From contig CAKKNE010000001.1 of assembly GCA_918797485.1 (NCBI GenBank), forward strand, positions 5,332,001-5,396,000: a stretch of DNA of 64,000 nt, written 5' to 3'. The notes under the pieces were generated by a model. That model was not told the origin of the DNA. It made no database searches and saw nothing but the letters and a program-made list of their open reading frames with translations. The position numbers and the translations under genes are program-made. Source of the stretch: Pelagomonas calceolata (Eukaryota; Sar; Pelagophyceae; Pelagomonadales; Pelagomonadaceae). This document shows positions 397 through 61,648 of this stretch, in pieces (positions within the stretch are counted from its first letter, which is position 1; each line of letters opens with the position of its first letter).

Positions 397-967
397 GTAT
401 CTTAACTTTTTTTGTCCTTCTCCCCTGGTCCCGGTGAGCGTGTGAGCCAAATGTCCAACCGCGCCGGGAGCGTGCGCGTGAGTCTGAAGTGTGTTCAGGC
501 CGGTGCCCGACTTTGTCTCGGCACCGCGACGGCAGCCCAAGCGCGCTATGCGTGGACCGGCGGAACGACTCAAAACAACCCGCGTGAAAAACCTGTGTGC
601 CGCTCGCGCGTGCCCTACAAGCTCGTACGGCCGAGTTTTTATGTTTGCTAGTGTGTTACTGGCTGCTAGCTCGATTATTTTTTCAGCTGCCGCGTGCCTG
701 GAGGATAACGCGGCTACCACTAACCCATCGCTGGGACGACGGCCAATAAGCACTCGCCGCAGCCAACAGGTGGTCCGGCAGAGTGAGCCTGACAACAAGC
801 AGGCAGTGAGCCAACAAGCAGGCCGCTGACTGCTGCGCCGCCGCGCACACAACTGCGCGCGCAAGCTGCCGCCCGCGCCCCGCGCAATCCACCGCGCCCC
901 CCGGCGCAAATCAGCGTTCAACATTGAGTCGACGGCCGCCGACCGCGCGCGGCCGCTGCTCGGCGCG
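397..967. other. intergenic stretch upstream of the CDF gene
   Basis: I see no convincing gene here; an antisense frame across it looks like a shadow. It holds one good copy of the promoter palindrome at 647-670 and a GC-rich leader before the ATG at 968. Confidence 0.5.
647..670 (+). promoter_or_regulatory. promoter palindrome copy 1
   Basis: GCTAG, then TGTGTTACTG, GCT, then GCTAGC. It lies about 300 bp upstream of the CDF gene start. It is one of about 17 copies of the same nested inverted repeat in the window. Confidence 0.7.
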
Positions 968-1750
968 ATGGCCGACCCACCACCGCCACAACCGGACCCG
1001 TCCCTGAAGCTGACCAAGCGCGAGGAGTACACGTTGGGGTTCACGACCATCGCCTTCATGGCCTTTTCGGTGATTGAGATGATCTACGCGTTTTCCAGTA
1101 ATTCGATGGCCTTGTTGGGCGACGCCGTCGCGATGATGGTCGACGCCTGCACCTACATGTTCAACGGCTGTGCCATAAGAAGAGCACGGCAGCAGGGCAA
1201 GGAGGACAAGTGGGCCGTGCTAGGACCGGTCATTTCGACGTCCGTACTCATAGGGGCTATGATCTACATTTTCTACGACGCCGTCTCCACACTAGCCTCG
1301 GGGGCGTCGGGCGACGGCGTGAACCTGGTCGTGGTCCTGGCCTTCGGCCTCGCGAACCTCGTGATTGACATCGCGTCCGGCGTGCTCTTCTGCGCCTACC
1401 CGGACGCCTACAAGGCGGTCCTCGTCTTCGCCGAGCCCGAGTCCTTGGAAGCCGACGGCGGCATGAACATCCGGTCCGCACTCACGCACGTCGTCGCCGA
1501 TACTTATAGAACGATCGCTGTGCTTGTAACGGCGAGCGCCGCGATGGCCGACGACGCCATCTCCTCGACGGCCGCGGACGCCTGGGGCGCCATCGCCGTC
1601 GAGATCCCGGTCCTGGTCATGGCCTTCGGCCTCGGGCGGGCGGCGTGGAACCGGTACGTCGCGCGGCGGTCCGGCCCGCCGGCGCCGGCGCCGCGGCCGT
1701 CGCAGCCGCCGCCTGCGACCCCGGAGGCGCGGGACAGCGGGCTCGTCTAA
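968..1750 (+). CDS. cation diffusion facilitator-like transporter
   Basis: A 260-residue membrane protein with about six hydrophobic helices, resembling CDF metal/proton antiporters. The helix-2 signature is seen at residues 46-59 (SMALLGDAVAMMVD). The helix-5 signature is at 167-178 (NIRSALTHVVAD), with metal-binding H174 and D178. In helix 2 the usual HxxxD is AxxxD: D59 is kept but the His position is Ala55. The cytosolic C-terminal metal-sensing domain of typical CDFs is missing and is replaced by a short Pro/Ala-rich tail. Metal specificity cannot be read from the sequence. The start is the first ATG after the promoter palindrome at 647. CDF family membership is fairly sure; active transport is less so. 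Confidence 0.75.
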   Translation: MADPPPPQPDPSLKLTKREEYTLGFTTIAFMAFSVIEMIYAFSSNSMALLGDAVAMMVDACTYMFNGCAIRRARQQGKEDKWAVLGPVISTSVLIGAMIYIFYDAVSTLASGASGDGVNLVVVLAFGLANLVIDIASGVLFCAYPDAYKAVLVFAEPESLEADGGMNIRSALTHVVADTYRTIAVLVTASAAMADDAISSTAADAWGAIAVEIPVLVMAFGLGRAAWNRYVARRSGPPAPAPRPSQPPPATPEARDSGLV

Positions 1751-2133
1751 GTTTTCTTAGGAATCGTCGGGAGCTCCCCTCGCATCTGCCCGCGCGGGGT
1801 GCAACTCGCGCTGCTGCTCCGGACTTGTGCTGCTCTCTTATTGCTCCGTACGCTTAAGAATTGCCGATCTCTCCGCGCGTCGCGGCCTCCAGCTGGCTGC
1901 ATGTTGCCCTCCCTCAGCTGCAGTCCTTTTGCGAGGCTGTACATACGCGTCTGCTGCAGCTCAGACGATCGCCAGGCCTTGTGTGGCTCTTTAGACAGCC
2001 AAACAACTCGCCTCTCGCTTGACGCTGCCGCCGCGGCGCTGCAACCCAGGCGTTTTGCCGCTGTGCTCTCGCTCGCCATAGCACAGCCCTGCGCGGCGGC
2101 GGACGAACCACCGCAACAAACACCGCCGCAGCC
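1751..2133. other. intergenic stretch between two co-directional genes
   Basis: No gene, repeat or promoter palindrome is seen. It presumably carries the 3' end of the CDF gene and the promoter of the next gene. Confidence 0.4.
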
Positions 2134-3165
2134 ATGCCGACGGCGTGGCGGCCACCGCTGCTCGCGCGGCTGGCCCTGTGCTACGCCGCGGCCGCGGGCG
2201 CCGCCGGTCGCAAGCGCGGCCACGACGCCTTCTGGATCATGGACCCGTCCGACCAGTTATGTCTGACGACGCACGGCACGCTGGGCCCCTGCGACGGCGA
2301 CGCCATGTGGGTCTACGTCCCGCGCAAGGGCAAGGACAAGTGGTCTCTAGCTTCTGTACTTGAGCCTGTTACCAGACAAATGTGCTTGACCAGAGTCAAA
2401 GCTTCGGCGCGGGGCGGCGCCTGCGGCGGCAAGGCGGCCCAGCGCTGGGAGGTCGTCCGCGACGGCCAGCAGTTCGCGGTCACGGAGGATCGGCAAAAGC
2501 ACTGTGTGGTGAGAGACGCGCACCTGTGGAGCCATCGGGCCCAGCTCCAGCAGGCCGTCAAGGCGGGCAAGTCCATCCAAAGGGGGCACGACGCGGCTAC
2601 TTTAGTGAAGAAAGTGCCTACTCATGTAGCACATAACACCGTCAGTTTGCACAAGTGCGCGAAGGGCCACACGTCCTTCGAGCTGCACACCTCGAACGTC
2701 CACGAGCACGGCTTCATGTTGGCTTCCGCCGACACGCACTGCTTCGACGGCGTGCAGTTCCGGCCTTGCTCGGATGAGGATGCTCATCTGCGCTGGGGCT
2801 TTGGCGTGTCCTTCGACTGGTTAAGTGGGGCGCCCAAAAGTCAACTGTACAAGTTCTACAACTCTACTGCCTGCTTAGTTGCTGGTTCGGATGGCGGGGC
2901 GACCTTAGGTGCCTGCGACAGCCCGAAGGCGTCGGGCTGGGGTTTGCGCGCCGGCCGTCTCTCAAGGGGCGGCGACGGCCACAAGTCCGGTAGCTGTTTA
3001 GTGCGCACGTTGGACGGCACGGGCGCGCTGGCCAAGTGCAAAGATGGGATGTTCGAGCACCTCACATTAACTCTGGACTCGGACGGCTCGGATATATTAC
3101 AAGCGGCCATGGACAAGGTCGCCGAGATCGACAAGAAGAAGGCTGCCCAAGCGGCGCGGGCGTGA
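2134..3165 (+). CDS. secreted Cys-rich protein with ricin-B-like repeats, function unknown
   Basis: A 343-residue protein that begins with a signal-peptide-like stretch (LLARLALCYAAAAGAAG, residues 9-25). The rest is soluble with regularly spaced Cys and Trp. Segments such as CLVAGSDGGATLGAC and SCLVRTLDGTGALAKC, about 40 residues apart, look like beta-trefoil (ricin-B lectin) repeats, as do CLTTHGTLGPC and CLTRVKASARGGAC nearer the N-terminus. This suggests a secreted or lumenal carbohydrate-binding protein, but no QxW triplet is clear, so the fold is inference. The C-terminus is Lys/Ala rich. The start is the first ATG in frame. Confidence 0.6.
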   Translation: MPTAWRPPLLARLALCYAAAAGAAGRKRGHDAFWIMDPSDQLCLTTHGTLGPCDGDAMWVYVPRKGKDKWSLASVLEPVTRQMCLTRVKASARGGACGGKAAQRWEVVRDGQQFAVTEDRQKHCVVRDAHLWSHRAQLQQAVKAGKSIQRGHDAATLVKKVPTHVAHNTVSLHKCAKGHTSFELHTSNVHEHGFMLASADTHCFDGVQFRPCSDEDAHLRWGFGVSFDWLSGAPKSQLYKFYNSTACLVAGSDGGATLGACDSPKASGWGLRAGRLSRGGDGHKSGSCLVRTLDGTGALAKCKDGMFEHLTLTLDSDGSDILQAAMDKVAEIDKKKAAQAARA

Positions 3166-3543
3166 TGTGGTGGGGGCCTAAGCGTGGAAAGTAGTCTCTG
3201 TGCACTGCGTCGAGTCGATGTTACGGTGCTAGGACTAGTGGGCGGCGCCCCGGGGGAGACACCGCGCGTCGCCGATTCATCGGCGGCGGGCGCGTCGGCT
3301 CCAGACACTATCCCGCGAAAGATCGAGAGAGAGTCGCTTATTGAACCCACCCCCAGGTAGTACGGGCCCGAACGCTGATCGAATCTAGCGTTGTAACACA
3401 CTAGAGGCGAAAACTTTGGAGGCCTCAAACGCGCGTAGCTTTGCGTGCAGCGTGGACAGCTTGGTTTGGTCTGGCAAAGCCGCTGCGTCTCGCCACAGCC
3501 ATCACGCTTGCTGCGCCGCCGGATACGCGGCGAAGCGGGCACC
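3166..3543. other. intergenic stretch with a promoter palindrome
   Basis: No gene is seen. A palindrome copy lies at 3385-3404, about 140 bp before the next ATG. Confidence 0.45.
3385..3404 (-). promoter_or_regulatory. promoter palindrome copy 2
   Basis: CTAGCGTTGTAACACACTAG on the plus strand, a slightly shortened inverse copy of the motif. It lies about 140 bp upstream of the gene that starts at 3544. Confidence 0.65.
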
Positions 3544-4968
3544 ATGCGCGCCACAGCATGGCTCATAGTCGCTTTGTGTGCCCTCGGCGCGCTTGCCGAC
3601 GAGCCCAAGAAGAAGAAGAATGCTAAACCGAAGAAGGAAAAGAAAGACGCCAAGAAGGAGCAAAAACAAAAGGACTGCCCGGCGTGCCCCGCGGACCTCT
3701 CGGATGAATTAGCAGCAGCCACGGCACGCGCCGAGAAGGCCGAGGCGAAGACCTGCCCCGAGGATTTGAGTGAGGCGCTCGCCGCCGCCGAGACGCGCGC
3801 CTCCATAGCCGAGGAGAAGGCCGTGGAATTGCAGAAGAACGTCGACGACGAGATCGCCAAGGTCGTCGAGGCGAAAAAAGACGCCAAGCACTGGAAGGCC
3901 CAGGTCGACGGCCTCGAGGAGGCCCTCCAATCGACGAAGGCGGCCCTCGCCACGTCCCATGCCGAGCCCGTCGTGCCTGGGGTATCTATCTCAAATGATG
4001 GTACCGTGGCGTTCAACGCCACGGATGGACTCATAGCGGCCCAGAACGGCGCCGGGGCCGCGCTGGCCATGGCCGGCGAGGCCGCGAAGACGGGCTACCA
4101 GGCGCTCGTCGACGCCATTCCGACAGAGGAGGCCAAGAAGCTCGGCGAGGATGCGGTGGATGCGATGTACGGTGCCGTCGACAAGGGCAAGGCCAAGACG
4201 GCGGAAGCGTATGGTAATGCCTGGGGCTACGCCGTGGCCAATGAATATGTTGCGCCGGCGACGCAGTCTCAGGTCGAAGAGAAAGTATCCGTCGCGTACA
4301 GCAAGGCCGCCTCGATCACTTCGGATGTGTGCTACGACAAGATTCCTTCATTATATGAAAAGCACGCGAAAAAATACGTCGACGCCGCTTTGATTGAAAT
4401 CGGCGAGCGGAAGGCGCTGGCCACGGTCGAATTAAGGGAGCTCTTTGCCCACGCCCAGCAGGCCTTGCATGATCGCGTCCAGCAGCTGAAGGAGAAGCTG
4501 CCGACGTCGGCGGATCTGAAGAGTAGGGCGGACTCGGCGCGGGAAGTGGTGGCCCTCCGCTTCCACGCCTTGTTAGTGGCCGCGGGCGCCTGCGACGAGA
4601 CGAGCGATGTGCCGTGCGCGCCGGCGAAGCGCCTCGCGTCCGCGTGCGTCGCCTGCTGGGCGGTGGCCGCGTGCGTTTTACTATTAATCGCGGCCTACCA
4701 TTTGGTGGGGATGTTATTGGGTCTGGCGAAGAAATTGGTCGTCGCCGTGGGCAAGCGCGCCGTGCGCCTGCCGCTCATGCTGATTAAGCTGGCCATCGCG
4801 TTGGTGGTCCTCGCGGTGTCGCTTGCTCTCAAACTCGCGCTGCTGCCCCTCCGCATCGTGCTGCTGCCCGTGACGCTGCCGCTCGCCTTGCTCGCGCGGA
4901 AGAAGGGGCCCGCGAAGGCGTCGGCGCGGCCGCCGCGCAAGAATTCTCCTGCCCGCGGGCGGCGCTAG
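3544..4968 (+). CDS. coiled-coil membrane protein with signal peptide, unknown function
   Basis: From the ATG at 3544 the product is 474 residues; the frame opens further upstream but without a better start. It begins with a signal peptide (WLIVALCALGALA), then a Lys-rich stretch. An Ala/Glu/Lys-rich coiled coil follows, with two C-P-x-D-L-S repeats (CPADLSDEL, CPEDLSEAL). The middle region has no clear family. The last quarter carries two or three hydrophobic segments (about 375-400 and 420-460) and ends in a basic tail. The layout suggests a lumenal coiled coil anchored by C-terminal helices. I do not recognise a family. Confidence 0.65.
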   Translation: MRATAWLIVALCALGALADEPKKKKNAKPKKEKKDAKKEQKQKDCPACPADLSDELAAATARAEKAEAKTCPEDLSEALAAAETRASIAEEKAVELQKNVDDEIAKVVEAKKDAKHWKAQVDGLEEALQSTKAALATSHAEPVVPGVSISNDGTVAFNATDGLIAAQNGAGAALAMAGEAAKTGYQALVDAIPTEEAKKLGEDAVDAMYGAVDKGKAKTAEAYGNAWGYAVANEYVAPATQSQVEEKVSVAYSKAASITSDVCYDKIPSLYEKHAKKYVDAALIEIGERKALATVELRELFAHAQQALHDRVQQLKEKLPTSADLKSRADSAREVVALRFHALLVAAGACDETSDVPCAPAKRLASACVACWAVAACVLLLIAAYHLVGMLLGLAKKLVVAVGKRAVRLPLMLIKLAIALVVLAVSLALKLALLPLRIVLLPVTLPLALLARKKGPAKASARPPRKNSPARGRR

Positions 4969-5056
4969 AGATCTGCCCCCCTCCCGCACGCGCGGGAATA
5001 ACTTCACAAACTTATATAAATATGCACACGATATGTCGAACGAGCATCGAGATAAG

Positions 5057-19368: not shown

Positions 19369-19820
19369 GGCTGGTGCAGCTTTTTGTGCAGCTTTTTTGT
19401 GCGTGATCGATCTGAAAGTGATCGATGCGGCTGTAGGCGAGCTCTTTGGTTTGGGAGGTGCAGTATCGGGGCAAGCGCGCTGGCCGCTGAAGTTGCGCAA
19501 TAATCGTCCTAGCGCATCATACATACTAGCCAACGTCGACGGCAATTCACGCTACCGGCCGCTATCCAACTTTGGCTGCGACCGCCTCGCTCGGGAAGCA
19601 ACTCGTCGCCTCTCGCGCCGAGACGCACCGGCCGGTTCGACGCGCCGCGCCGCTCTCGGTCAAAAACCAGCTCCTGGTCGCTTAGCGCGCGACGAGCCAC
19701 CGGTCAGCCTCGTCGTCGCGCCCGCGCCGACGAGCCACCACCGCAGCCCCAGCCCCAGACTCGTCGCCGCCGCCGCGGCGCCGAGCCCGCGGCCGCGGCC
19801 CGTTCGCAACCCTGGCGGCC
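19369..19820. other. divergent promoter region
   Basis: This lies between bL13m (minus) and UBC13 (plus). No good copy of the palindrome is seen, and no other gene. Confidence 0.4.
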
Positions 19821-21273: not shown

Positions 21274-21289
21274 TTGGCGGTTTCGCGCT

Positions 21290-21534: not shown

Positions 21535-21558
21535 GCTAGCGGTTTGTAAGACACTAGC
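21535..21558 (-). promoter_or_regulatory. promoter palindrome copy 5
   Basis: The inverse form (GCTAGCGGT, TTGTAAGACACTAGC) in the divergent region between 21511 (minus) and purK at 21799 (plus), only 24 bp from the minus-strand ATG. Confidence 0.75.
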
Positions 21559-23007: not shown

Positions 23008-23350
23008 GTGATGCGCGTTAACTTCTCTTACTTTTCTCGAGGGACTCGCGTCGATGGCGTCCCGGGAGACGAATCGTTTTTGCTAGTGTGTTACAGACCG
23101 CTAGCTGCGCCTTGGCTTGCCCAAGCTAAATCGGCCTGCATTTGCCGCGCGACGCCTGCCGGGAGCAGGCGACCGGCTAATCGCTGCGCGCCAACCGTGT
23201 AAGCCGCCGCGCATCGCCACGCGTGCGCCCTGAGGCGGCGGGACCCTCCACAAAGCAGGGAGAGCAGGCAGCAGCAATCGCAGCGCGCCGACCGCTGACG
23301 CAGCCGCGCAGAGCACGCGTGCGCCCCGCGGCAGCACACCAAGCAGCACC
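23008..23350. other. intergenic stretch with orphan core and palindrome
   Basis: It holds the core GCGTCGATGGCGT at 23048-23060 just after the purK stop and the promoter palindrome at 23082-23105. No gene is seen. Confidence 0.5.
23082..23105 (+). promoter_or_regulatory. promoter palindrome copy 6
   Basis: GCTAG, TGTGTTACAG, ACC, GCTAGC; about 245 bp upstream of the zinc-finger gene ATG. Confidence 0.75.
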
Positions 23351-25767: not shown

Positions 25768-26168
25768 TTTGTGGTTCTGGCGTGATTCTGAGGCGACAGC
25801 GAAGGAGATTGAAAGATGCGGCGACCGCTCAGCTATTGCTCGCGGGCGACGGCGTTCTGGATGTGAGGCGACAGCGAGGCGACAGCGAGGGGTTGTTTGA
25901 CCGCGCACAGCACCTGGCGTGAGGGTCAGCTATATCTTTGAAGCGATGCGCGACCCGGAGCGTGTTCTGTGGCGCTTTACAGCGAGCAAGGGCACTTTTT
26001 TGTGGAGGAGGAGGCCTAGGAGGCTGGGATAACGCTAGTATGTCAATGTGGCGCTAGCTGGCGCAAGCAAGACAGCGGCTCCGTACTGCCCCTATATATC
26101 CTCATCACTCGCCCACGGTTCCATCAGGGCCCAGTCGTAGCGGCGCGGAGGCGATCTGGACCGATAAT
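25768..26168. other. divergent promoter region with degenerate palindrome
   Basis: This lies between the thiolase (minus) and bL28m (plus). It holds a divergent palindrome copy at 26034-26058 and no gene. Confidence 0.45.
26034..26058 (+). promoter_or_regulatory. promoter palindrome copy 7 (divergent)
   Basis: GCTAGTATGTCA, then ATGTGGCGCTAGC. The outer arms are kept and the centre has drifted. It lies 111 bp upstream of the bL28m ATG. Confidence 0.5.
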
Positions 26169-30425: not shown

Positions 30426-30891
30426 CTCCTACTCGGTCGGCGCACCTTTGTCGCTGGCCTGGGCATCTGGGAGCAGTGTCGTCGCAGCGATGCCCACTGA
30501 ACCGGCAAACGAGCGCGCGCGCCGGCCGCGTCGCCCGCGTCTCCTCTCCCGCGGCTGGCTTTGTGAGGACCGCGAGGCCCTCCACGGATGAGTCCAGGGA
30601 CCGCCGAGCGAATTCCCGGAGCCTCGCAGTGTTGATCACGCGTCTTTGGGCCTGTTTTCCGTGCTTGCTAGTGTCTTTACAGACCGCTAGCCGCCGAACT
30701 GCAGTTGAGAGCAGGCCTCCATTTGCGGCCGCACCCGGGCTAGAGACTGCCGTGATAGGCTTCGCGGGTCGCCATCATCATACCCGTCGCACAGCGGTAC
30801 TTTTTTTACGTGGTTTGAACGCATACGAAGAGCTCCCAAGCCGAAAACTCCCGGCTGCAGAAGAAGTCTGTGCACGGAGTAGCATTGAAAA
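30426..30891. other. divergent promoter region with palindrome
   Basis: This lies between Tom70 (minus) and the JmjC gene (plus). It holds a palindrome at 30667-30691 and no gene. Confidence 0.5.
30667..30691 (+). promoter_or_regulatory. promoter palindrome copy 8
   Basis: GCTAG, TGTCTTTACAG, ACC, GCTAGC; one extra T in the centre. It lies 200 bp upstream of the JmjC gene ATG. Confidence 0.75.
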
Positions 30892-32343
30892 ATGAGCCGC
30901 ACCAGCTGCCTCGTCCTACGACCAACCCTCGCCGAGTTCAACGACATCGAGACCCTGATGCGCCGGGCCGAAATGGAGTCCGAGGGCGCCGGGATCGTCA
31001 AAATCGTGCCTCCATCTGGATGGTGGGACGGCGCCGCCGAGGCTTCACAAGCATTCAACGGCGATACGATACCGGGGAAGACGAGCGGCGGCCGGCGCGC
31101 CAAGAATCTGCTGGATACGCTGAAGTTGAGGCCCATCCGGCAAGCGGTGAGCCGCCCACCAGGCACGCCCAAGGGCGCCTTCGAAGTTGCGATCCTGCCA
31201 CAACCACAGACAACAGCTAAACAATTCCGCAAGACGGCCCTGAAACTACAAGAAGAAGCAGAAAGGAAAGCTCGAGAAGCTAGAGAACGGTTCGAGAGGA
31301 GAGGCTGCGAAGCGCGAGGCTCTGAAGATGTGAGTGATGACGCGGGCGTCGAGGCGGCCTTCTGGAAGGCGCTGACGCCGTTAAATGAAGCGCCGCTCTA
31401 CGGCGCCGACGTCGACGCGACTTGTTTTACGGATAATGACAAGACGAGTGAGGGAGAAGTACCAGGCTGGCACCTCGACGCGATACCCTCGTGCCGCCTG
31501 AGACCCTTCCTCAAGCGCCTGAAAGCGCGAATCCCGGGCGTGACGAACGGCATGCTGTATTTTGGGGCGCCGCGGGCCTTCTTCGCGTGGCACGTGGAAG
31601 ACGCGAACCTGTACAGCGTCAACTACCTGCACTGCGGCGCGCCCAAGTCCTGGTACGCGCTGGACCCGCGGGCCGCGCCGAAGTTCGAGGAAAAATGTAG
31701 GGAGGCCTTCCCCGACTTGGCGCGAGAATGTAAAGATTTTCTAAGGCACAAGACCGTCGTCGTGAGTCCGGACTTGCTCGTGAAGTGGGATTTAGATCAA
31801 TATCTGGTCGAGTGTGTCCAAAGACCGGGCGAGATGGTCGTCACGTTTCCTGCTGGGTATCATTGCGGCTTCAACCACGGCTACAACGTCGCCGAGTCTA
31901 CGAATTTTGCCACTGATACTTGGAGTGAGATTGGTCGCCAGGCGTCGCACTGCAAGTGCCAAGCGGACACGGTGCGCATCGACGTGCCGCTGTTCGAGCG
32001 GTGGCGCGTCGAGGGCGAGAATGCTTTCGTCTGTAAGCCCGTGGTGGTCGAGGCGCCGCCACCTGCTCCGCCGCCGAAGAAGAAGGCCAAGAAAGCCTCA
32101 TCGAACAGCGCGCCGCGGAAACGGCGGTGCCGCACGTGCGCCGCGTGCAAGGCCGCGGACTGCGGCGAGTGCAAGTTCTGCAAGGACTCGCCGAAGTTCG
32201 GCGGCCCGGGCAAGATGAAGCAGTGCTGCGTCAAGCGCGTGTGTCTGCAGCCGAGACTGCCCCCTTCCGCTATGGTGAGCGGGGCGCCCTGTTCATCCGG
32301 CACGCGGCACATCGACAAGCGCATTCCCCCCATCATGACCTAA
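30892..32343 (+). CDS. KDM4-like JmjN-JmjC histone demethylase with CXXC finger
   Basis: A 483-residue intronless gene. JmjN is at about 8-45 (LRPTLAEFNDIETLM, GIVKIVPPSGW). JmjC is at about 195-350, with the Fe(II) ligands H234 and E236 in FAWHVEDANLYSVNYLHCG and the last His in AGYHCGFNHGYN. The extra KDM4 zinc site is kept: C280 and H286 in RECKDFLRHK with C354 and C356 in HCKCQ. After a Pro/Lys linker comes a CXXC zinc finger at about 409-453 (RKRRCRTCAACKAADCGECK and a final CCVKRVC), which in other proteins binds unmethylated CpG. It likely demethylates histone H3 lysines at CpG-rich promoters. Confidence 0.88.
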   Translation: MSRTSCLVLRPTLAEFNDIETLMRRAEMESEGAGIVKIVPPSGWWDGAAEASQAFNGDTIPGKTSGGRRAKNLLDTLKLRPIRQAVSRPPGTPKGAFEVAILPQPQTTAKQFRKTALKLQEEAERKAREARERFERRGCEARGSEDVSDDAGVEAAFWKALTPLNEAPLYGADVDATCFTDNDKTSEGEVPGWHLDAIPSCRLRPFLKRLKARIPGVTNGMLYFGAPRAFFAWHVEDANLYSVNYLHCGAPKSWYALDPRAAPKFEEKCREAFPDLARECKDFLRHKTVVVSPDLLVKWDLDQYLVECVQRPGEMVVTFPAGYHCGFNHGYNVAESTNFATDTWSEIGRQASHCKCQADTVRIDVPLFERWRVEGENAFVCKPVVVEAPPPAPPPKKKAKKASSNSAPRKRRCRTCAACKAADCGECKFCKDSPKFGGPGKMKQCCVKRVCLQPRLPPSAMVSGAPCSSGTRHIDKRIPPIMT

Positions 32344-34581: not shown

Positions 34582-36667
<2,086 letters not shown>

Positions 36668-39399: not shown

Positions 39400-39746
39400 T
39401 GCGCGCAGCGGTTTTGGCTGCTGCAAGGGTGAGGGCCAAGGTCAAAGTGGGAGCGGCGGCGGCGTCGTGTCCACCAAGTCACTTAGCGTGGTCAGCACTA
39501 CTGTAAGTGTGCCCGCACGCCGGCCAGCGCGTGTTGCAGCTATTGCGGCGCGATTGCAGCGCTTTGCTTTTGCGCTAGTGTCCTTATGACGCTAGTAAAA
39601 CTCGGAGAGCTCGCCGCTTTTTGGCCAGCGTAGCGGCCTCTGTGGTCAAGTGCCAATTGCACGGCTCGCGTATATTAACTAACATACCTGCCGGAGCATC
39701 GCTGCGGCGGCGAAATTCGTATTTAGGCAGTAGCGAGCATCGTGAC
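39400..39746. other. divergent promoter region with palindrome
   Basis: This lies between GH1 (minus) and mEF-G1 (plus). It holds a palindrome at 39574-39596 and no gene. Confidence 0.5.
39574..39596 (+). promoter_or_regulatory. promoter palindrome copy 10
   Basis: GCTAG, TGTCCTTATG, A, CGCTAGT; slightly degenerate at the end. It lies 150 bp upstream of the mEF-G1 ATG and 175 bp upstream of GH1. Confidence 0.65.
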
Positions 39747-45863: not shown

Positions 45864-46299
45864 ATCGCTGCGGCGTGACGTCGAGGTCCGATGCTGATGA
45901 CGGAGCGGCACCGATACTGGTGCCGCTCCCGAGATAAACCTTTCGGGCCTTGGCGGCGCGCGCGCGGTTTCCCCTCCCCTTTGCTGTTTCTAAGGAGGAT
46001 TTGTTTTCTAATTTGGCTCTCGAACTTGCTTTCGACTCGCTAGCGGCCTGTAAGACACACTAGCAAAGCGCCGAGCGCTTTTGCGAGCGCCTTTTTGCCG
46101 CGATCCCTGGACCAGTTGCAGCCGCGACTAGACCAGAGGCGCAGTCCTTGTGTATTTTCGACGCCTGCGACGTCAGCGCCATCATCGGTGCTCGACACGC
46201 CAATTGCTCACTGACCGCGTTTAGAGAAACTCGCGGGTAACTCGCCGGACACCGCGCCGTCTGCATATAGAACTTGCCGTCGCCGTGCCGCTGTACGCC
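45864..46299. other. intergenic stretch with palindrome
   Basis: It holds an inverse palindrome at 46039-46064 and no gene. Confidence 0.5.
46039..46064 (-). promoter_or_regulatory. promoter palindrome copy 11
   Basis: GCTAGCGGC, CTGTAAGACACACTAGC; two extra bases in the centre. It lies about 236 bp upstream of the ATG at 46300. Confidence 0.7.
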
Positions 46300-47160
46300 A
46301 TGCATCACCTCCTGGCAGTGCTGAGCCTCGCGACCGCGCTCGTCGCGCCGACGCGGCGCCAGACAACTCGCCTCCGCGCCGCGTCGCTCGAGAAGAAGGG
46401 CGACGATTATATTTTTGAGGACATCGCGAAGAACTTGGGAAAAGGAGACCAGGACCGCCTGTACCAGTACCAACTGGAGCTCGCCGAGCGCTACGGCGAG
46501 GACAAGATCGGTCGCGCGGCGCCGCCGCCGAAGCCCAAGAAACCGAAGCAGGGGGGCACCGTAGTCGTCGAGGCCGTGACGACGACGCCGAGGACGAAGG
46601 CCGTCGTCGCACCGCGCAACTCCAAACTCCGCTGGCGAGGCCTCGTGTGCGGCGCCGCGGTGGCGTTGTTTTTGACGCCTGGGTTTTTGGAGTACTTGAT
46701 CAGCGTCCGGACGAAGGCGCTCGCCCTCGAGAAGTCGCTCGAGGCGCTCTTATTAGCAGTGGCGGCGCCGGCGACGGACGCGCTCTCCGCTGCGTGCGGC
46801 GCCGCCGCGCCCATCTGCGCATCGGCCTACGGCTCCGTCGCCGCCACCGCGGCCGGTGCGTATGGTGCGGCCGCGCCCGCCTGCGCCAAGGCTTGTAGTA
46901 GCGTCGGCGCGGCGGCGTCGTCGGCCTGCGGCGGCATCTCGGCGGCGGCCGGATCGGCCTCCGCCTCTCTTGCACCGCTCGCGGCCAAGGTTGGCTCGGC
47001 CGTGGGTTCAGCGTACAGTAGCGTCTCCGCGACCAAGGTCGGCGCTGCGGTGACGAGCGGCGTCGCCAAGGCGAGTGCGCGGGTCGGACCGCCCCTGGCC
47101 CGCGTCTGGAGTTTCTTGGTCAATTGGAAGGGATTGATCTTCTGGCGACCTGGAAATTAA
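46300..47160 (+). CDS. Ala-rich membrane protein, possibly plastid-targeted
   Basis: A 286-residue protein from the ATG at 46300. The N-terminus is a signal peptide (HHLLAVLSLATALVA) followed by a Thr/Arg-rich stretch (PTRRQTTRLRAAS) that looks like a transit peptide, though the +1 residue is not Phe. A charged domain (DYIFEDIAKNLGKGDQDRLYQYQLELAERYGED) comes next, then one hydrophobic helix (GLVCGAAVALFLTPGFLEYLI). A long Ala/Ser/Gly/Cys-rich tail follows with repeats such as SAACGAAAPICASAYGSVAA and AAAPACAKACSSVGAAASS. No family is recognised. The repeats suggest an amphipathic or structural tail. Confidence 0.6.
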   Translation: MHHLLAVLSLATALVAPTRRQTTRLRAASLEKKGDDYIFEDIAKNLGKGDQDRLYQYQLELAERYGEDKIGRAAPPPKPKKPKQGGTVVVEAVTTTPRTKAVVAPRNSKLRWRGLVCGAAVALFLTPGFLEYLISVRTKALALEKSLEALLLAVAAPATDALSAACGAAAPICASAYGSVAATAAGAYGAAAPACAKACSSVGAAASSACGGISAAAGSASASLAPLAAKVGSAVGSAYSSVSATKVGAAVTSGVAKASARVGPPLARVWSFLVNWKGLIFWRPGN

Positions 47161-50051: not shown

Positions 50052-50227
50052 AACGGCGCGTGACCGCTTCCTCTTCTCCCGGTCCCTCCTCTTCCCTTCC
50101 CGCGTGTTCCTCTTCCCCAAGTCATGATGTTGTGTCAGCGCTTGCGCTGTCCTGTCTATGTCTCTTCTACGTAAAAACGCTTTTCTCACGATGCGTTCGA
50201 GGAGTGAGTGAGGGGCATTATGCCAGT

Positions 50228-50241
50228 ATGTAACACACTAG
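50228..50241 (-). promoter_or_regulatory. promoter palindrome copy 12 (partial)
   Basis: Only ATGTAACACACTAG is kept; the left arm has drifted. It lies about 77 bp upstream of the CHMP2 gene ATG. Confidence 0.5.
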
Positions 50242-50317
50242 AAGCTCTCAGGACAGCAAAACTCTCCGTTTTTTTTGGCATTACTCGTACCTGCTAGCAC
50301 GAAATTGGCAGTGTACA

Positions 50318-50997: not shown

Positions 50998-52716
50998 CTA
51001 AAGCTCATCGCCGCGAGGCAGCGTCGGCGCTTCGACCTCCGGCTTCTTCTCGCAGATCAGCGCGCCGTGGCGGTTGCCCACATGCTCGTCGTCGGCACAC
51101 GCCGACGGCTCGATGGACGCCTCCTCGACCTGGCCCCGAAAGCCCGTCTGGCACTTTTGACAGAGAAGGACCCCGCCTGGCTCCATGTCGCAGCCCTCGC
51201 AGGACCCTAAATAAGATCCGGGCGGAATCGTCGCGCCGTTCGGCCGCGCCGGCGTTTTCCGCCGCTTTTCGCGCTCGTAGTCCCGCTTGCGCTCAAAGGG
51301 ATCACCAAACGGTTCGTACTTGAAATCCTCTGGAAAGTAGCGCCGCAACACCCTTTCGGAAAAGGGCATGCCTTGCGTCGTCCCGTCCCGTTCGAACCCT
51401 CGGTCCAAGTCATCGCCGCGGTCGTACGCCTTGCGCTTCTCCGGATCGCCCAGGCAGTCGTGCGCCGCCGACACGCGCTCGAAGGCCGCCGTCGAGCCAT
51501 CATTTTTGTCGGGGTGCGCGCTCCGAGATGCGGCCCGAAAAGCCTTCCGTAATTCATCGCTCCCGAAGTCGCGAGTCACGCCCAGCACGAGGTAGTGGTT
51601 GTGCGACTCGTTGCCACCCGCGAGGCGCCTTCGTTCGACGTCGACGGCGGCGAAGACGACAGCGTCGCGCACGCCGTCGCGCGTCCGGTCGGTCCACGCT
51701 AATCTTTCAGCGTTGCGCAGCGCGTCGGAGGCGCGCCCTGAATCTAATGCAAGGGCCGCGTCGGCGACGAGCGCCGCGCCGTACGTCGGGAATAATGCAA
51801 GCGCCTCCCTCAACGAATCTCGCGCCTCGTCGAAGCGCCTTGATCTTCTACAGCACTCGCCCCGCCTTAATGAAGCCAGGGCCGACGCCCACTTGACGAC
51901 TTCCGCGTCCTCGGCGCGGTTCCAGAAGGGCTGGATCGCGTACTTGCCTGCCTTCCACGCGTCGGCACACTTGCCGTAGTCGCCGCTCGCCGCGAACCGC
52001 GCCGCCTCGCTCGCGTCGGCCTTGGCCACGAGGTCGGCCGGCGGCGCCAGGGGCTCTCGACTGTCTTGCGCAGTAGCGCCGTCGGGCGCCGCGAGGGCCT
52101 GGAGCGAGCCGAACTCGGACACGGCGTTTCCCGCGAGGGCGTTGCGGATCACCGCGTTGTGGTGCCGCCGCTGGTTGACCAAGTTCCAGACCATGTTCCG
52201 GTCGCCGATGTAGATGACCTGCCAGGGCAGCTCATCCACATTATCGTCGTCGCCCGACGCCATGTCCTCCGCGGCCGTGCGCTCGTAGGGTGAGGGTCTA
52301 TGACTATGACTCCACGAATCGCCGGCGCCCGGGATCACCGTGTCGCCCGCGTGCTCGAACCTATCTTTGCCGCTCTGATCTATAAAAACCCACTCCGTCT
52401 CCTTGCCGCTTTTGGTTTTGAGACCCACGGGCGGGCCCGCGAACGCTAAGATCCAGTCCGACTCCTCGTTGCGGTACGCGACCTTGCAGCGCCGCGTTCG
52501 ACACGCGCGCCGCAGCGTGTTCGGATCGACGAGCGCGTAGACGCCGTTCAGGTCATCTAACGTCGAGCCGGCGACGAAAAAGCCCTGGGCCCAATCCCTG
52601 ACGGTCCCGACGCGCCGCGGGCCGCCGCCGCCGCCGCCGTAGGGCACGACGCCGCCCGGTCCCACGAGCTGCGCGCCGACGCCGCTGAACAGGAGTGCCA
52701 GTGCTTGCAGTTGCAT
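50998..52716 (-). CDS. ER-lumenal DnaJ protein with TPR-like region and CVNH domain
   Basis: A 572-residue protein with a signal peptide (LQALALLFSGVGAQ) and a C-terminal RGDEL, a KDEL-like ER retrieval signal. The order is a beta-rich N-terminal domain (about 45-130), a helical TPR-like region (about 225-360) and a J domain (NHYLVLGVTRDFG to DPEKRKAYD) with the HPD that stimulates Hsp70/BiP. A short linker follows, then a C-terminal domain with the cyanovirin-N pattern (PGSYLGSCEGCDMEPGGVLLC to SACADDEHVGNRHGALIC). CVNH domains bind sugar, so it may couple glycoprotein recognition to BiP. TPR plus J in the ER recalls DNAJC3. The ATG at 52716 starts at the signal peptide. Confidence 0.82.
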   Translation of the reverse strand: MQLQALALLFSGVGAQLVGPGGVVPYGGGGGGPRRVGTVRDWAQGFFVAGSTLDDLNGVYALVDPNTLRRACRTRRCKVAYRNEESDWILAFAGPPVGLKTKSGKETEWVFIDQSGKDRFEHAGDTVIPGAGDSWSHSHRPSPYERTAAEDMASGDDDNVDELPWQVIYIGDRNMVWNLVNQRRHHNAVIRNALAGNAVSEFGSLQALAAPDGATAQDSREPLAPPADLVAKADASEAARFAASGDYGKCADAWKAGKYAIQPFWNRAEDAEVVKWASALASLRRGECCRRSRRFDEARDSLREALALFPTYGAALVADAALALDSGRASDALRNAERLAWTDRTRDGVRDAVVFAAVDVERRRLAGGNESHNHYLVLGVTRDFGSDELRKAFRAASRSAHPDKNDGSTAAFERVSAAHDCLGDPEKRKAYDRGDDLDRGFERDGTTQGMPFSERVLRRYFPEDFKYEPFGDPFERKRDYEREKRRKTPARPNGATIPPGSYLGSCEGCDMEPGGVLLCQKCQTGFRGQVEEASIEPSACADDEHVGNRHGALICEKKPEVEAPTLPRGDEL

Positions 52717-53085
52717 TGTTTAGTTCTCGGTTCCGCCGTCGGCTTGCTTGTTTATTTCGTGATTCCGCCGTCGGCTTGCGAGCTAATGCATTTCTCGCGA
52801 CTGCTGGGGGCAGGTAGGCAGCCTGCTGGTGGAGTGTAGTATTGCTTGCCGCGTGCAATTGATGTGCCTTTGGGTGCGGCAGCGCGGCAGTGTCTCAAAT
52901 CGATAATGCGACAGCTGGCTCGAACCGATACGGGCAGGAGCGCGCTAAAAAGCTGCCGACATGCGCTACTGGCTAGAGGCTGTAAGACACTAGGCAGCAG
53001 AATTATCATGCGTCTTACGTGCACAGGGCAGGCTATTGGGGGGAGGGGAAATGTGTCGATGAGTCTACCCAGAGAAGAGAGAGGC
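52717..53085. other. intergenic stretch with palindrome
   Basis: It holds an inverse palindrome at 52972-52993. No gene is seen. Confidence 0.45.
52972..52993 (-). promoter_or_regulatory. promoter palindrome copy 13
   Basis: GCTAGAGG, CTGTAAGACACTAG; about 256 bp upstream of the DnaJ gene ATG on the minus strand. Confidence 0.7.
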
Positions 53086-55209: not shown

Positions 55210-55320
55210 GACGAGTGACTTGTTGTGGTATTCGGCGACGTAAGGAGAGGCCCCGACGTCCGGATATCAAACGATAACCGTGAGATCTCGCGTCGAGCTG
55301 GCGTCTTTTTCTATGGCCCA

Positions 55321-55339
55321 GCGGCTGTAAGACACTAGC
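55321..55339 (-). promoter_or_regulatory. promoter palindrome copy 14
   Basis: GCGGCTGTAAGACACTAGC; the left arm is shortened. It lies about 112 bp upstream of the AOX ATG on the minus strand. Confidence 0.65.
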
Positions 55340-55419: not shown

Positions 55420-56748
55420 TTAGGCTGGCACCGGAGTCCGCGCCGGAGCGACCGGAGGCGACGCGGGCGCGGGGGGCTCCGCCAGCGACAGCCCCGCGAG
55501 CGACAACTCCTCGACGGGCACCGACGGAAAGTCGGGCAGTTCCGGAGCCGGCGGATCGAGCAGGGCCTCGAGCTCCCGCTCGAGGTCCGCGTCCTCCGGC
55601 GAGACGAAGGTCTCGTGCAGCGCGTCGTCGACGGCCGCAACTTCCGCGGTTTCTGTCTGCAGGGCCTCCGACGCCGCCGCGACGTCTTCAACAGTCACAC
55701 CGTCCAAGCGCGCCTGCTTTAAAGCGTCGGCGGCGAGCGTCATCGCCTGCACGGTCTCGCCGTCGTCCCAGAGGCCGCACAACGCGTCGTGGGGCGCCTC
55801 GAGGTGCTGGGCGTGGACGGTCCGACGCTTGCGCACGTCGTCCCTTGACAGTTTCCACCGGCGCGCGTTGAAGGCGGTCTTGGCGCCGCGGCACGCTTGC
55901 AAGGCGGACGCTTCCCGCGCCTCGGCTCGCTTCAAAGCGAGCGCCGATCGTAATAAAGCGGCTCGTAGCGCGACGGCCGCCGCGTCGGAAGGCGCCACGG
56001 CGCCGCGGATCCGGACCGTGCCCTCGCCGAGCGTCTCGAGGTCCGCGGCGTCGTCCACGCTCGCGACGCCCTTTATTACACCGCGACCCAGCAACGCGCG
56101 CCGCGTCCGCACGCAGCGCGCGCACCGCGCGAGCGCGAGCGACGCCGGCGGTTTCGTCGCTAGGGCCGCGCGCGCGCACGCCGCCGCGAGCGACGCCGGC
56201 GCGGCGTCGACGCGCAGCTCGTCGTCGACGTGGGCGCTCCGCAACGCAAAGCAGCGCTCGGCGCCCCGCAGTGACGACACATAGTCGACAAATGCGTCGA
56301 GGGCGGCGTCCAGCGCGGCGTCCGCCACGACGTACACGCCGCGGGCCGCCACCCTCCAAGCCTGGAGGTAGGACACGACGGCGGCGACGGGTCGGCCCTG
56401 GCGCCGCCGCCGCGCGGTCTCGGCCGCGCGCGTGAGTGCGGCGGCCGGCCGAAACCGCGCTTCTAAGCACCGCGCGAGCCCCGGCGGCGCGCCGTACTCG
56501 TCCGAGGCGAGCGCTTTTGCGAGTTCATCCGCGTCGAGCACGAGCCAGCCCCGGGCGGCCGCGGCCTTTGTCACAGCTCGCTGCCATTCGTCCGCGAAGT
56601 CCTCGTCTAGCGGTTCATTATCGTCCGGGATGCTGTAGAGGTACTCGACACGCTCCGCGTCGGTCGTGTCGAGGTATGGTGTTGTTGTGGCGGCGGTTGA
56701 AGCGGTCGGCTCCTCGTCGTCGACTTCCGGCGCCGCAAACTTGGTCAT
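55420..56748 (-). CDS. ESCRT-III related CHMP7-like protein
   Basis: A 442-residue protein. The N-terminal half (about 35-240) is helical with the layout of the CHMP7 winged-helix/ESCRT-II-like region. The C-terminal half holds the Snf7 core (LKRAEAREASALQACRGAKTAFN, then QHLEAPHDALCGLWDDGETVQAM and DGVTVEDVAAASEALQTETAEVAAVDDALHE). An acidic helix (DADLERELEALLDPP) comes next, then a MIM2-like LPDFPSVP motif for MIT binding. CHMP7 nucleates ESCRT-III at the nuclear envelope and in sorting. The match is structural rather than close in sequence, so the name is moderately sure. Codon use is extremely GC/Ala-rich. Confidence 0.7.
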   Translation of the reverse strand: MTKFAAPEVDDEEPTASTAATTTPYLDTTDAERVEYLYSIPDDNEPLDEDFADEWQRAVTKAAAARGWLVLDADELAKALASDEYGAPPGLARCLEARFRPAAALTRAAETARRRRQGRPVAAVVSYLQAWRVAARGVYVVADAALDAALDAFVDYVSSLRGAERCFALRSAHVDDELRVDAAPASLAAACARAALATKPPASLALARCARCVRTRRALLGRGVIKGVASVDDAADLETLGEGTVRIRGAVAPSDAAAVALRAALLRSALALKRAEAREASALQACRGAKTAFNARRWKLSRDDVRKRRTVHAQHLEAPHDALCGLWDDGETVQAMTLAADALKQARLDGVTVEDVAAASEALQTETAEVAAVDDALHETFVSPEDADLERELEALLDPPAPELPDFPSVPVEELSLAGLSLAEPPAPASPPVAPARTPVPA

Positions 56749-56899: not shown

Positions 56900-56922
56900 G
56901 CTAGCGACCTGAAAGGCACTAG
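56900..56922 (-). promoter_or_regulatory. promoter palindrome copy 15
   Basis: GCTAGCGA, CCTGAAAGGCACTAG; the centre is changed. It lies about 152 bp upstream of the CHMP7 gene ATG (minus strand). Confidence 0.6.
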
Positions 56923-57032
56923 AAAAATTGTGATCTTGACGTCTGCGCTCTCCGCGAGCGCACGACGTCACAAGGGGAATAACGTCTGCGCTCTCCGCGC
57001 ACGACGTCACAGGGGGGAAGAAGGAAGGAAGC

Positions 57033-58568: not shown

Positions 58569-58904
58569 CGTACCGCAGCCCTTCACCGCGTCACGCTCTC
58601 AGCCGGCTCTCTGCGGCCATTGCGAGCCTGCAGACGTGCCATGCGCGTATGTTTGCATTCCTCTGATGCTTCACCAAATATTATTCCTCTCATGTGCAAA
58701 CCATGAAGCTCAGTCTAGGCAGCCACAGCCTCGTAGCGCCGCCGAGGAATGCCGCGCGAGAGGAAGTAGTCCGGTTCGCACTACACGTGTGGCTTGCTAG
58801 TGTCTTTCATGCCGCTAGCCGGATTAACTTTTGGGCTCTGCCTCTCGCCGCGGCGCTACGACAGCCGGTCAAGACCCTCGTTTGCACACAGCACCTTACT
58901 GATC
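58569..58904. other. divergent promoter region with palindrome
   Basis: It holds a palindrome at 58796-58819 and no gene. Confidence 0.5.
58796..58819 (+). promoter_or_regulatory. promoter palindrome copy 16
   Basis: GCTAG, TGTCTTTCAT, GCC, GCTAGC; 86 bp upstream of the RNA-binding gene ATG and 228 bp upstream of the GT49 gene. Confidence 0.7.
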
Positions 58905-60019
58905 ATGGGCGATTACGGAGGCTCGTACGGTGGGGGAGGTGGCGATCGCTACGGTATACTCCCAGCGCCTGTTTCTCAATCGCTCCCAGCGCAATCCCAG
59001 CGCGGGGCGCGTCGCGCGCGTCGAGACACAGCAGCATTATAACACTCTCTTCCCTCGCAGGCGGCGGCGGCGGTGGTTATGGCGGCGGCCAGTACGGCGG
59101 CGGCGGCGGCAACTACGGAGGAGGAGGCAACTACGGCGGCGGCGGCTATGGCGGCGGCGGCGGCTACGGCGGCGGCGGGGGCGGCTACGCGGTGCCCTAC
59201 GGCGGCGGCCAGCGCTACGGCGAGGGCCAGGGCGGCGGTGGGTATGGTGGCGGCGGCTACGGCGGCGGCGGAGGCTTCGGCGGCCCGCCGCGCGGCGGCG
59301 GCGGCGGCTTCGAGATCTGCCGCGACTTCCAGCGCGGCATGTGCAACCGCGGCGACAACTGCCGCTACTCGCACGACGGGAACGCCCCGGCGGGCCCGCC
59401 GCGCGGCGGCGGCGGCTTCGGCTCGAACGCCTGCTACGAGTGCGGCGAGATCGGCCACTTTGGTCGAGAGTGCCCCGTGCGGCTCCGCAACGGCGGCGTC
59501 CGCGGGCCGACGGTCTTCGGCCCGCGCGGCGGCGGCGGCGGCGGCGGCGGCTACCAGGGCCCGGGCCCGTCCTACGGCGGCTACGGCGGCGGTGGCGGCG
59601 GCGGCCGCGACCAGAAGCGGTCGCGCTCGCGGTCCCGCTCCCGCTCGCGCAGCCGCTCCCGTTCGCGAGGGCGCCGCCGCGACCGCTCCGCATCTTCTAG
59701 ATCGTCCTCACGCTCGCGCTCGAAGTCGCGCTCGAAGTCGCGCAGCAAGTCGCGCAGCAAGTCGAAGTCTCCCGAGCCGGCGGCAGACAAGAAGGAGGAC
59801 GAGAAGCCCTACGAGCCCGAGGAGGCCGCCGCCGCCGAGCCTGAGCCGGCCGCCGCGCCGGCTGAGGCCGCGGACGAGGCCAAGAAGACCTGGACGGCCG
59901 ACGAGATCGGGAAAATGACGGTCGCGAAGCTCAAGGAGGCGCTCACCACGCTCGGCCTCGACACGAGCGGCCTCAAGGCCGCGCTCAAGGACCGCCTCAC
60001 CGACGCCATGGGCCTCTAG
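58905..60019 (+). CDS. RNA-binding protein: Gly-rich, CCCH, CCHC, RS and SAP domains (2 exons)
   Basis: Exons 58905-58953 and 59061-60019 give 335 residues. A GGY/GGN low-complexity region (about 1-105) is followed by a CCCH finger (ICRDFQRGMCNRGDNCRYSH, C-x7-C-x5-C-x3-H). A CCHC zinc knuckle (ACYECGEIGHFGRECP) comes next, then more Gly repeats, an RS/SR domain, an acidic Ala/Glu/Pro region and a C-terminal SAP motif (MTVAKLKEALTTLGLDTSGLK). The parts point to a nuclear splicing or mRNP factor that binds RNA and may phase-separate. SAP motifs usually bind DNA. The order is unusual, but each domain is clear. Confidence 0.88.
58954..59060 (+). other. 107-nt intron
   Basis: The donor is GTATAC and the acceptor CTCTTCCCTCGCAG with a good pyrimidine tract. 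It joins GGDRYG to the Gly-rich repeat. No introner features are seen. Confidence 0.88.
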
Positions 60020-60387
60020 AGGCTCGATCATCCCCCTTCCCTTCCCCGTGTGCGCGCCTGCGACAGTAACGTTGTCACACGACGCCGGCCGGCCGGCCGC
60101 CGAGCATTCTTCGGCCGGGCGCTAACTAACGAGGGGGTCGACAGAGCTATATGATAACACTATCGAGGTCAGGCGTGCGGTCTAGGCGTGCGGCAGGAGG
60201 ACTACTTGGAGGACTCGCTTCGCAAAGTTCGGGTTGCGCTGCTGTGCGGCCTGTGCTGTGCCGAGCGCACAGCGTGCTTTTGCTGCCGCTTTGCGCGTCG
60301 TCAGCCCACGGGCCGCCGCACGCATTGTCGGGCAGCCTCAAGAAGCCGCGGAGAGCAGCCATGCGACGCGTAAACCCCATCTAGACC
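60020..60387. other. intergenic stretch
   Basis: No palindrome and no gene are seen. A short GGCC-repeat run lies near 60085-60101. Confidence 0.4.
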
Positions 60388-61545
60388 ATGAAGCACTGCC
60401 TGCTCCTCGCGGCGGCGGCGTACGCCTACAACGCGTCGACGCCGCCGACGAAGATTATAAAATCGAACTGCACGCTCCAGCGCTTCCCGCCGATCTACGC
60501 GAATCGCGTGCACTTTTTTTCCTTTGTGGCGGCGGACCTGTACCACCTGCTCGGGCATGCGTTAAGGTACTACCGCCACCTCGGTCTAGATCTGAAGAAC
60601 CAGGGGCGAATATTTGTACACAACGCGAGCGGCCCGGTAGCGCTCGAGAAGACGTTGGTGTATTTGCGGCGGTACGAGATAACCTACCGTGTCTCGAACG
60701 AGTGGTCCAGTCAGACGAAGCGCGAGGCAGCCAACCAATTCCTCCTGAGCCTGCCGAACGACGCCTGGCTCGTCTACCCCGATCTGGACGAGTTCTTCGC
60801 CTTTCCCTGCGAAGTGTTGAATATTATGGACCAGGGAGGGCTCCTGAGCGGCCAGATGGTCGACCGCGTCGCATACGATTGGCACCTCAACAGTCTGAGG
60901 CCGCTTCCAAGAGCAGCAAAGATGAACAATCGCTCATCCATAGACTACCAGTTCCCGCGGTCGTGTCGACTCACTGGCGGTTTGCTCGATACGAACGTTA
61001 ATAAATACACGCTCGTGCCGGCCGTCGACGCGGCAGGAAAGAGGTTGCGGTACATCAACGCCCACTCCGTCGCCTGTGGCACGCAACGACGTAACCTACG
61101 CCACGTCCACGCGCAGCGCGCCAACGATTGTCATGGGGTTACGATCTACCGGGGACCCGCCGTCGCGCACTACGGCTTCACGAAGATCACGATCCCCGTC
61201 CTGGAACGGAAGCTCGCCACATATAAAGCTTTGGCGCGTACTTCCGGCGAACTCCGCCACCGCGACGCCGTCGAGCACTACCGGAAGCTCCGGGACTCGT
61301 TCGAGTACTGTCCTTTGACGAAGTCGTTCCAGTTCACTCGAAAAGCGCGGCGGCTCCTTCAACGAAGGCGGTACTGCGACCCGCTTCCACCCCATCTTGA
61401 GCGGGACTACGCGCCGTCTCGATTTTGTTTCGAGCCGACGAAGGCGCCCCGGCCGCGGCCGACGCCGCGGCCCTCTGTCATGCGGAAGGCGAAGGCGCCT
61501 CGAGTCTTGGGGCGTCCGGACGACGACGACCCGCCCGACGACTAA
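60388..61545 (+). CDS. GT92/GT2-like glycosyltransferase, secretory
   Basis: A 385-residue protein with a short signal-like leader (MKHCLLLAAAAYAYNAS). The region around RVHFFSFVAADLYHLLGHALRYYRHLGLD and the metal-binding WLVYPDLDEFFAFPC (DLDE) is typical of the GT-A enzymes grouped as DUF23/GT92 and related GT2 families. A Cys pair and His residues (NAHSVACGT, RANDCHGV, VAHYGFTK) lie after the active site. The C-terminus is Pro/Arg-rich. It probably acts in the Golgi or ER on a polysaccharide or glycan; donor and acceptor are unknown. The ATG at 60388 starts at the leader. Confidence 0.72.
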   Translation: MKHCLLLAAAAYAYNASTPPTKIIKSNCTLQRFPPIYANRVHFFSFVAADLYHLLGHALRYYRHLGLDLKNQGRIFVHNASGPVALEKTLVYLRRYEITYRVSNEWSSQTKREAANQFLLSLPNDAWLVYPDLDEFFAFPCEVLNIMDQGGLLSGQMVDRVAYDWHLNSLRPLPRAAKMNNRSSIDYQFPRSCRLTGGLLDTNVNKYTLVPAVDAAGKRLRYINAHSVACGTQRRNLRHVHAQRANDCHGVTIYRGPAVAHYGFTKITIPVLERKLATYKALARTSGELRHRDAVEHYRKLRDSFEYCPLTKSFQFTRKARRLLQRRRYCDPLPPHLERDYAPSRFCFEPTKAPRPRPTPRPSVMRKAKAPRVLGRPDDDDPPDD

Positions 61546-61629
61546 CGTTTTGTGTTGACTCTAGATCGTTGTTCATCTTAGTAGAGAGAGAGTCGCTTGG
61601 CGCGCCGGAGATATTGCTCCGATAATGAC

Positions 61630-61648
61630 CTAGCTGTAAGACACTAGC
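61630..61648 (-). promoter_or_regulatory. promoter palindrome copy 17
   Basis: CTAGCTGTAAGACACTAGC; the left arm is compressed. It lies 125 bp upstream of the ATG at 61774. Confidence 0.65.

Follow-up and report, generated by a model that had tools for sequence, protein, structure and literature searches.

A polar bipartite sequence element concentrated in promoters of the pelagophyte Pelagomonas calceolata

What is a short, strongly conserved sequence that recurs in front of unrelated genes, and what might it do there? The question is raised by a stretch of 64,000 nucleotides from Pelagomonas calceolata (assembly GCA_918797485.1, contig CAKKNE010000001.1, positions 5,332,001 to 5,396,000), referred to as the window, in which a preliminary description had listed 17 copies of a "nested inverted repeat", or palindrome, upstream of start codons. 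Scoring with a weight matrix detected the element at 17 of 17 listed positions, with scores of 13.9 to 44.1 bits, and added an eighteenth. The copies are not uniform, those at 50228 and 61630 being without a recognizable right part and that at 55321 having a weak one. The motif GCTAGTGTCTTACA alone, with up to two mismatches, occurs at 12 places in the window, as compared to a mean of 0.16 and a maximum of 2 in shuffled sequence.

Eight of the 17 copies lie in divergent gaps, as described before, and the weak additional site (19508..19530, - strand, 16.9 bits) is the ninth. Where the neighbours are named here, they were identified by Pfam matches: a TPP enzyme (-) and a C2-domain protein (+) flank the site at 11313..11336 (+, 41.3 bits), a glycosyltransferase lies to the right of 14518..14541 (-, 42.7 bits), a TPR protein (-) and a PurK-like protein (+) enclose 21535..21558 (-, 44.1 bits), a thiolase lies to the left of the weak site at 26034..26058 (+, 19.5 bits), where the calls are divergent, a TPR protein (-) and a JmjC/CXXC protein (+) flank 30667..30691 (+, 30.5 bits), which has one extra T, a class II tRNA synthetase lies to the right of 34669..34691 (+, 39.6 bits), the weak site at 39574..39596 (+, 18.5 bits) separates a glycosyl hydrolase family 1 protein (-) from elongation factor G (+), and that at 58796..58819 (+, 39.2 bits) a glycosyltransferase 49 family protein (-) from a SAP/CCCH protein (+). 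Gaps between genes of the same strand hold the sites at 647..670 (+, 34.2 bits), upstream of a cation efflux gene (968-1750, +; Pfam); 3384..3405 (-, 27.0 bits), upstream of the ORF 3544-4968 (+); 46039..46064 (-, 21.4 bits), with two extra bases and upstream of the ORF 46300-47160 (+); 50222..50242 (-, 13.9 bits), which consists of the left part only, the right part scoring -8.9; 52972..52994 (-, 29.5 bits), upstream of a DnaJ-domain gene (50998-52716, -; Pfam); 55317..55339 (-, 23.9 bits), with a weak right part and weakly called adjoining genes; and 56900..56923 (-, 37.3 bits), upstream of the ORF 55420-56748 (-). The site at 61625..61648 (-, 15.0 bits), upstream of the ORF 61774-62277 (+), combines a perfect left part (30.5 bits) with an unrecognizable right part, and that at 23082..23105 (+, 41.3 bits) lies 3' of the PurK-like gene, the strand of the next gene being ambiguous.

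The earlier observation that coding and convergent regions of the window are free of the element was reproduced: no site falls into called coding sequence or into a convergent gap. A start codon is indeed near the sites, at distances of 92-535 bp from the site centre instead of the 24-320 bp given before, according to our own gene calls, several starts of which are uncertain. Pfam matches for 22 of the 30 window proteins back these calls. The genes next to window sites are functionally unrelated (PurK, thiolase, elongation factor G, DnaJ, JmjC, tRNA synthetase), and no bias towards a gene class is evident, with Pfam matches for 15 of 22 tested site-adjoining proteins and for 7 of 8 without a site.

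The anatomy of the element was derived from a weight matrix built from 56 of the 62 sites that mismatch rules had picked out of a 294-kb sample, the six dropped sites having a weak right part or being located in coding sequence. The consensus TT-GCTAGTGTCTTACA-N1..4-CGCTAGC-T carries 32.6 bits over 21 specified positions. The element thus described comprises 22-24 letters and is composed of an asymmetric 14-bp part, GCTAGTGTCTTACA with its TT flank, and the 7-bp part CGCTAGC; the spacer between them is 3 bp long in 32 of the 56 sites, 2 bp in 15, 1 bp in five and 4 bp in four. Conservation of the 14-mer is uneven (0 to 16 misses per position, chi-square P 9e-10) with positions 2-6 being nearly invariant, and bases more than 2 bp outside the element are unrelated between copies.

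The term palindrome does not withstand a search for symmetric versions. The pattern with asymmetric arms, GCTAGTGTC-N4..8-GMCGCTAGC, has 1,162 matches genome-wide, whereas patterns with two T-type arms and two C-type arms are found at 2 places (3 matches) and 3 places (6 matches), respectively, the reversed control of the C-type pattern giving 1 + 1. A true palindrome or a two-fold symmetric homodimer site is therefore ruled out. The asymmetric pattern put no constraint on the middle, and by eye TTA is present there in about 93 of 100 among the matches listed. The element is a three-part polar site, the arms of which are palindrome-like yet not interchangeable and the middle of which is also conserved; asymmetric bipartite site is the more fitting term.

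The element is not confined to the window. The scanned genome comprises 32,445,274 bases in 8 contigs, two of which are organelle-sized (90.6 and 39.4 kb). Across this genome, the exact bipartite site occurs 428 + 472 = 900 times on the two strands as compared to 0 for the reversed pattern, the exact 14-mer 581 + 596 times as compared to 0, and the 15-mer GCTAGTGTCTTACAG with up to two mismatches 1671 + 1612 = 3,283 times as compared to 4 + 11 = 15. The two DNA strands are hence used about equally.

Placement relative to genes was analysed in the window plus 23 stretches of 10 kb, together 294 kb or 0.9% of the genome, with 234 coding pieces; genes were called with our own codon model, and called coding sequence makes up 69% of this sample. 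The stretches chosen for the motif (L001-L008) were left out of the sample and the organelle stretches (L011, L012) out of all nuclear counts, while L009 and L010, which border on the window, are a non-random part of the sample. At 10 bits, the matrix finds 73 sites in the 294 kb and none in reversed sequence; divergent gaps account for 41 of them, same-strand gaps for 27 and stretch ends for 4, a single site is in a convergent gap, and coding sequence has none. Simple scaling of 73 sites per 294 kb gives about 8,000 sites expected per genome. Counted by gaps, 39 of 53 divergent, 27 of 91 same-strand and 1 of 56 convergent gaps hold a matrix site. The lone convergent site is weak (17.6 bits; L025, position 4807) and lies in a 1.5-kb gap that may harbour an uncalled gene. 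Introns are among the same-strand gaps: introner ends are present in 12 of the 91, and all 12 are free of the site.

Since the training sites of the matrix all lie outside coding sequence, independent evidence is provided by the mismatch counts and by a cross-check in which a model trained on 13 window sites was applied to the other 230 kb. The 14-mer with up to two mismatches yields 49 sites (28 divergent, 19 same-strand, 2 at stretch ends, 0 coding or convergent; reversed control 0), and under the mismatch rules 0 of 59 gap sites lie in convergent gaps (P 3e-5 by gap length). With the threshold at 15, the cross-check gives 50 matches, of which 30 are divergent, 16 same-strand, 3 at stretch ends and 1 convergent, with no coding match and none in the control; at threshold 10 there are 62, of which 3 are convergent and 1 is coding, with 8 in the control. 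The loosest rule, for which L007 was left out because it overlaps L006, produces 102 matches including quasi-palindromic doubles, 7 of them coding, with 19 matches in the reversed control and 11-49 in ten permutations; coding and convergent matches at loose thresholds thus come together with control matches. The element is concentrated in promoters of many unrelated genes. Neither of the outcomes that the preliminary description had named as refuting its reading, an equal frequency in coding or convergent regions or a restriction to the window, was observed.

Within these promoters, the orientation of the site relative to the gene is random: 12 matrix sites in same-strand gaps have the direction of the gene and 15 the opposite one (10 and 15 in a smaller set). 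Usually there is one site per promoter; under the mismatch rules a single divergent gap contains two or more sites as compared to 7.2 expected (P 0.004), and 2 of 53 do by the matrix. Over 73 gene starts, the site is a median 208 bp away from the chosen start codon.

Upstream ATG triplets are selected against in mRNA leaders, which allows the 5' limit of a leader to be estimated from DNA alone. Within same-strand promoters, in the interval 20-110 bp away from the site, sense ATG occurs 4 times on the gene side as compared to 25.3 expected and 14 times on the side away from the gene as compared to 14.4 expected; CAT on the gene side occurs 26 times (32.8 expected). Divergent promoters show a weaker depletion on both sides (37 ATG as compared to 67.5 expected at 20-110 bp), which is hardly seen more than 150 bp from the start codon. 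For positions equally far from the start codon, ATG and CAT number 74 and 126 between site and gene, as compared to 97 and 58 beyond the site (Fisher 2e-6). Permutation of site positions among the same promoters supports a boundary that moves with the site (P 0.001 in same-strand promoters; 0 of 2000 permutations across all promoters), and pseudo-sites placed in site-less promoters match the observed ATG switch in 0 of 500 same-strand draws and in 1.4% of divergent ones. As the depletion begins at the gene-facing edge of the site and is absent beyond it, the site marks, to a precision of a few tens of bp, the 5' limit of mRNA leaders that we infer from these counts. T-tracts on the gene strand are enriched within 100 bp of the site (TTTTT 46 as compared to 10.2 expected; AAAAA 23 as compared to 9.4), and TATAAA is rare, with 4 upstream occurrences on the gene strand over 200 starts.

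Taken as a recognition site, the element would probably be read by one abundant, putative sequence-specific DNA-binding protein or complex that marks TATA-poor, often bidirectional Pol II promoters, a reading in which we have considerable confidence. The random orientation and the ATG boundary that tracks the site support the earlier suggestion of a bidirectional promoter or transcription-factor site. The presumptive factor may act in the following manner: It would contact the 14-bp part (GCTAGTGTCTTACA and TT flank) and the CGCTAGC part, flexibly spaced 1-4 bp apart, and would as a rule be bound once per promoter, in either orientation. The bound factor may then open the promoter, presumably by excluding nucleosomes, and set the position of the transcription start, so that leaders would begin at most a few tens of bp away from it, to one side in same-strand gene order and to both sides between divergent genes. 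At 32.6 bits, the information content is high by the standards of eukaryotic factor sites, which counts against a factor-site reading. A search for C2H2 fingers, made exon by exon and with short repeats scoring low, returned two isolated matches only, and thus there is no obvious many-fingered factor.

The best surviving alternative, and an unlikely one, is that the site belongs to a transcription factor of a particular regulon instead of being a general promoter element. It is absent from 14 of 53 divergent gaps and from many same-strand gaps, which implies at least two promoter classes; a k-mer search of site-less promoters for a substitute motif gave introner ends and a GGCAGCC heptamer, but no clear substitute. 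A regulon is difficult to reconcile with the expected number of about 8,000 sites for 16,667 annotated genes (as given for P. calceolata in PMC9481584) and with the unrelated window genes adjoining the sites.

That the element is a very short mobile repeat or remnant, inserted into open promoter chromatin and devoid of a regulatory role of its own, is improbable. High copy number and high information would fit such an origin, and introner-type elements are also present in the genome. Like the promoter site, the introners of pelagophytes are dispersed in the same genome, and they have inverted terminal sequences. Intron lengths in P. calceolata peak near 210 bp, the introner length (PMC9481584), in contrast to the promoter site of about 24 bp, which is missing from all 12 same-strand gaps with introner ends in the sample. 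The mobile repeat considered in the preliminary description finds no support: there is no target-site duplication, as flanks at nine tested boundaries match no more often than by chance once the element's own CTAG is set aside; conservation within the 14-mer is uneven, near invariance being restricted to positions 2-6; and flanking bases beyond 2 bp are unrelated. Convergent gaps, although also non-coding, are nearly free of the element (P 3e-5 for none by the mismatch rule), its spread is therefore not blind to gene ends (1 of 56 convergent as compared to 39 of 53 divergent gaps), and promoters usually hold a single site. An RNA hairpin in 5' leaders, acting in translation, stability or early termination, is most improbable: the arms can pair in one orientation with one G-U pair, five tested sites fold at z -0.42 to -2.19 and the site is near the presumptive leader 5' end, but its orientation is random instead of fixed, left position 1, in the one variable arm pair, is changed in 16 of 56 sites with the partner still pairing in 4 of these 16, which speaks against compensatory base changes, the adjoining pair on the side away from the loop (left 8) mostly cannot form (9 of 56), and arm pairs 2-7 are uninformative because they hardly vary.

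Sequences outside the genome add to the picture. Two exact matches in the genome_contigs collection, from marine sample ERR599032, are Pelagomonas-like DNA, 90-96% identical, in chimeric bacterial MAG contigs; an occurrence in bacterial genomes proper is thus rejected for this collection. In the first of these relatives all 24 bp of the site are identical, with insertions and other changes nearby on either side; in the second only the last base, a degenerate matrix position, differs, and the surroundings vary. The support from this is weak, as both loci were found through the site. A viral origin is disfavoured: viral_contigs contains no match to the bipartite pattern, and the bare 15-mer occurs there in nine stretches, probably by chance given their G+C of 35-43% and the right part in none of them. 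The algal element is unrelated to AAAAATGA, the motif of early promoters in the Aureococcus giant virus (PMC5917014). Searches of open-licence papers on pelagophyte, Pelagomonas or Aureococcus promoters gave no description of the element, and among the listed papers that contain a motif string none concerned algal promoters by title.

Among known systems, the yeast general regulatory factors Abf1, Reb1 and Rap1 recognize specific sequences in a great number of unrelated promoters, divergent promoters among them, and probably open chromatin. The algal element resembles these sites in its sequence specificity and its presence at many unrelated promoters, divergent ones included, but it differs in sequence and is located at the estimated leader boundary; the yeast sites have about half its length and information. 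The human ZNF143 site is long, present in many promoters and enriched in bidirectional ones, and its factor stimulates initiation, typically binding upstream of an initiation site (PMC11118474). The algal element is likewise long and found in many, often bidirectional promoters; unlike the ZNF143 site, it serves, as a single site, the majority of divergent gene pairs in a compact genome. The ZNF143 site also differs from it in sequence. Oomycetes, which are also stramenopiles, possess the core elements INR (YCAYTYY), FPR (MWTTTNC) and DPEP (SAASMMS) with a clear forward-orientation bias (PMC3599244). These share with the algal element the lineage-specific occurrence near transcript starts in TATA-poor promoters, whereas the latter is longer, unrelated in sequence by eye and without orientation bias (12 same, 15 opposite). 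By analogy, the element may work like a general promoter-factor site or a ZNF143-type site, and it belongs to none of the families with which it was compared.

In a bolder and rather doubtful version of the recognition-site reading, one orientation-blind 33-bit element would replace TATA/initiator-type core signals for about half of the genes, a single complex reading one copy per promoter and initiating outward on whichever side the gene lies; if this were true, promoters and leader starts could be read from the genome sequence alone. Promoters are poorly defined in most algal lineages outside plants, and so specific a site would allow marking many promoters of this alga from sequence alone. 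The element would offer a bait for purification of the putative factor and a promoter part for genetic tools, as well as a clean case of a strictly asymmetric site that serves promoters without a preferred direction.

Two marine MAG contigs from ERR599032, CAJWEZ010000013.1 (labelled Spirochaeta) and CAJWHT010000032.1 (labelled Desulfobacteraceae), each carry bacterial genes and Pelagomonas-like DNA on the same contig; they are likely chimeric assemblies among the reference genomes.

In the 294 kb sample (the window and 23 stretches of 10 kb), introner-like repeats with the inverted ends CTGTGTGGAAATCA and TGATTTCCACACAG are found, exemplified by L013:8984-9097 and L016:4445-4516 in two of the sampled stretches; further introner-like repeats lie elsewhere in the sample, where one 12-mer of these repeats has 26 matches. 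They reside chiefly within same-strand gaps between coding pieces, occurring in 12 of the 91 gaps of this type.

One bipartite promoter site in the window is adjoined by a gene (30892-32343) encoding a protein with JmjC and CXXC zinc-finger domains. Within 100 bp of the sites across the sample, T-tracts are enriched on the gene strand (TTTTT, 46 versus 10.2 expected). Promoter gaps of the same sample are enriched for the heptamer GGCAGCC/GGCTGCC (85 versus 25.6 expected, both strands counted); convergent gaps contain 2 copies. This heptamer is possibly a second promoter element.
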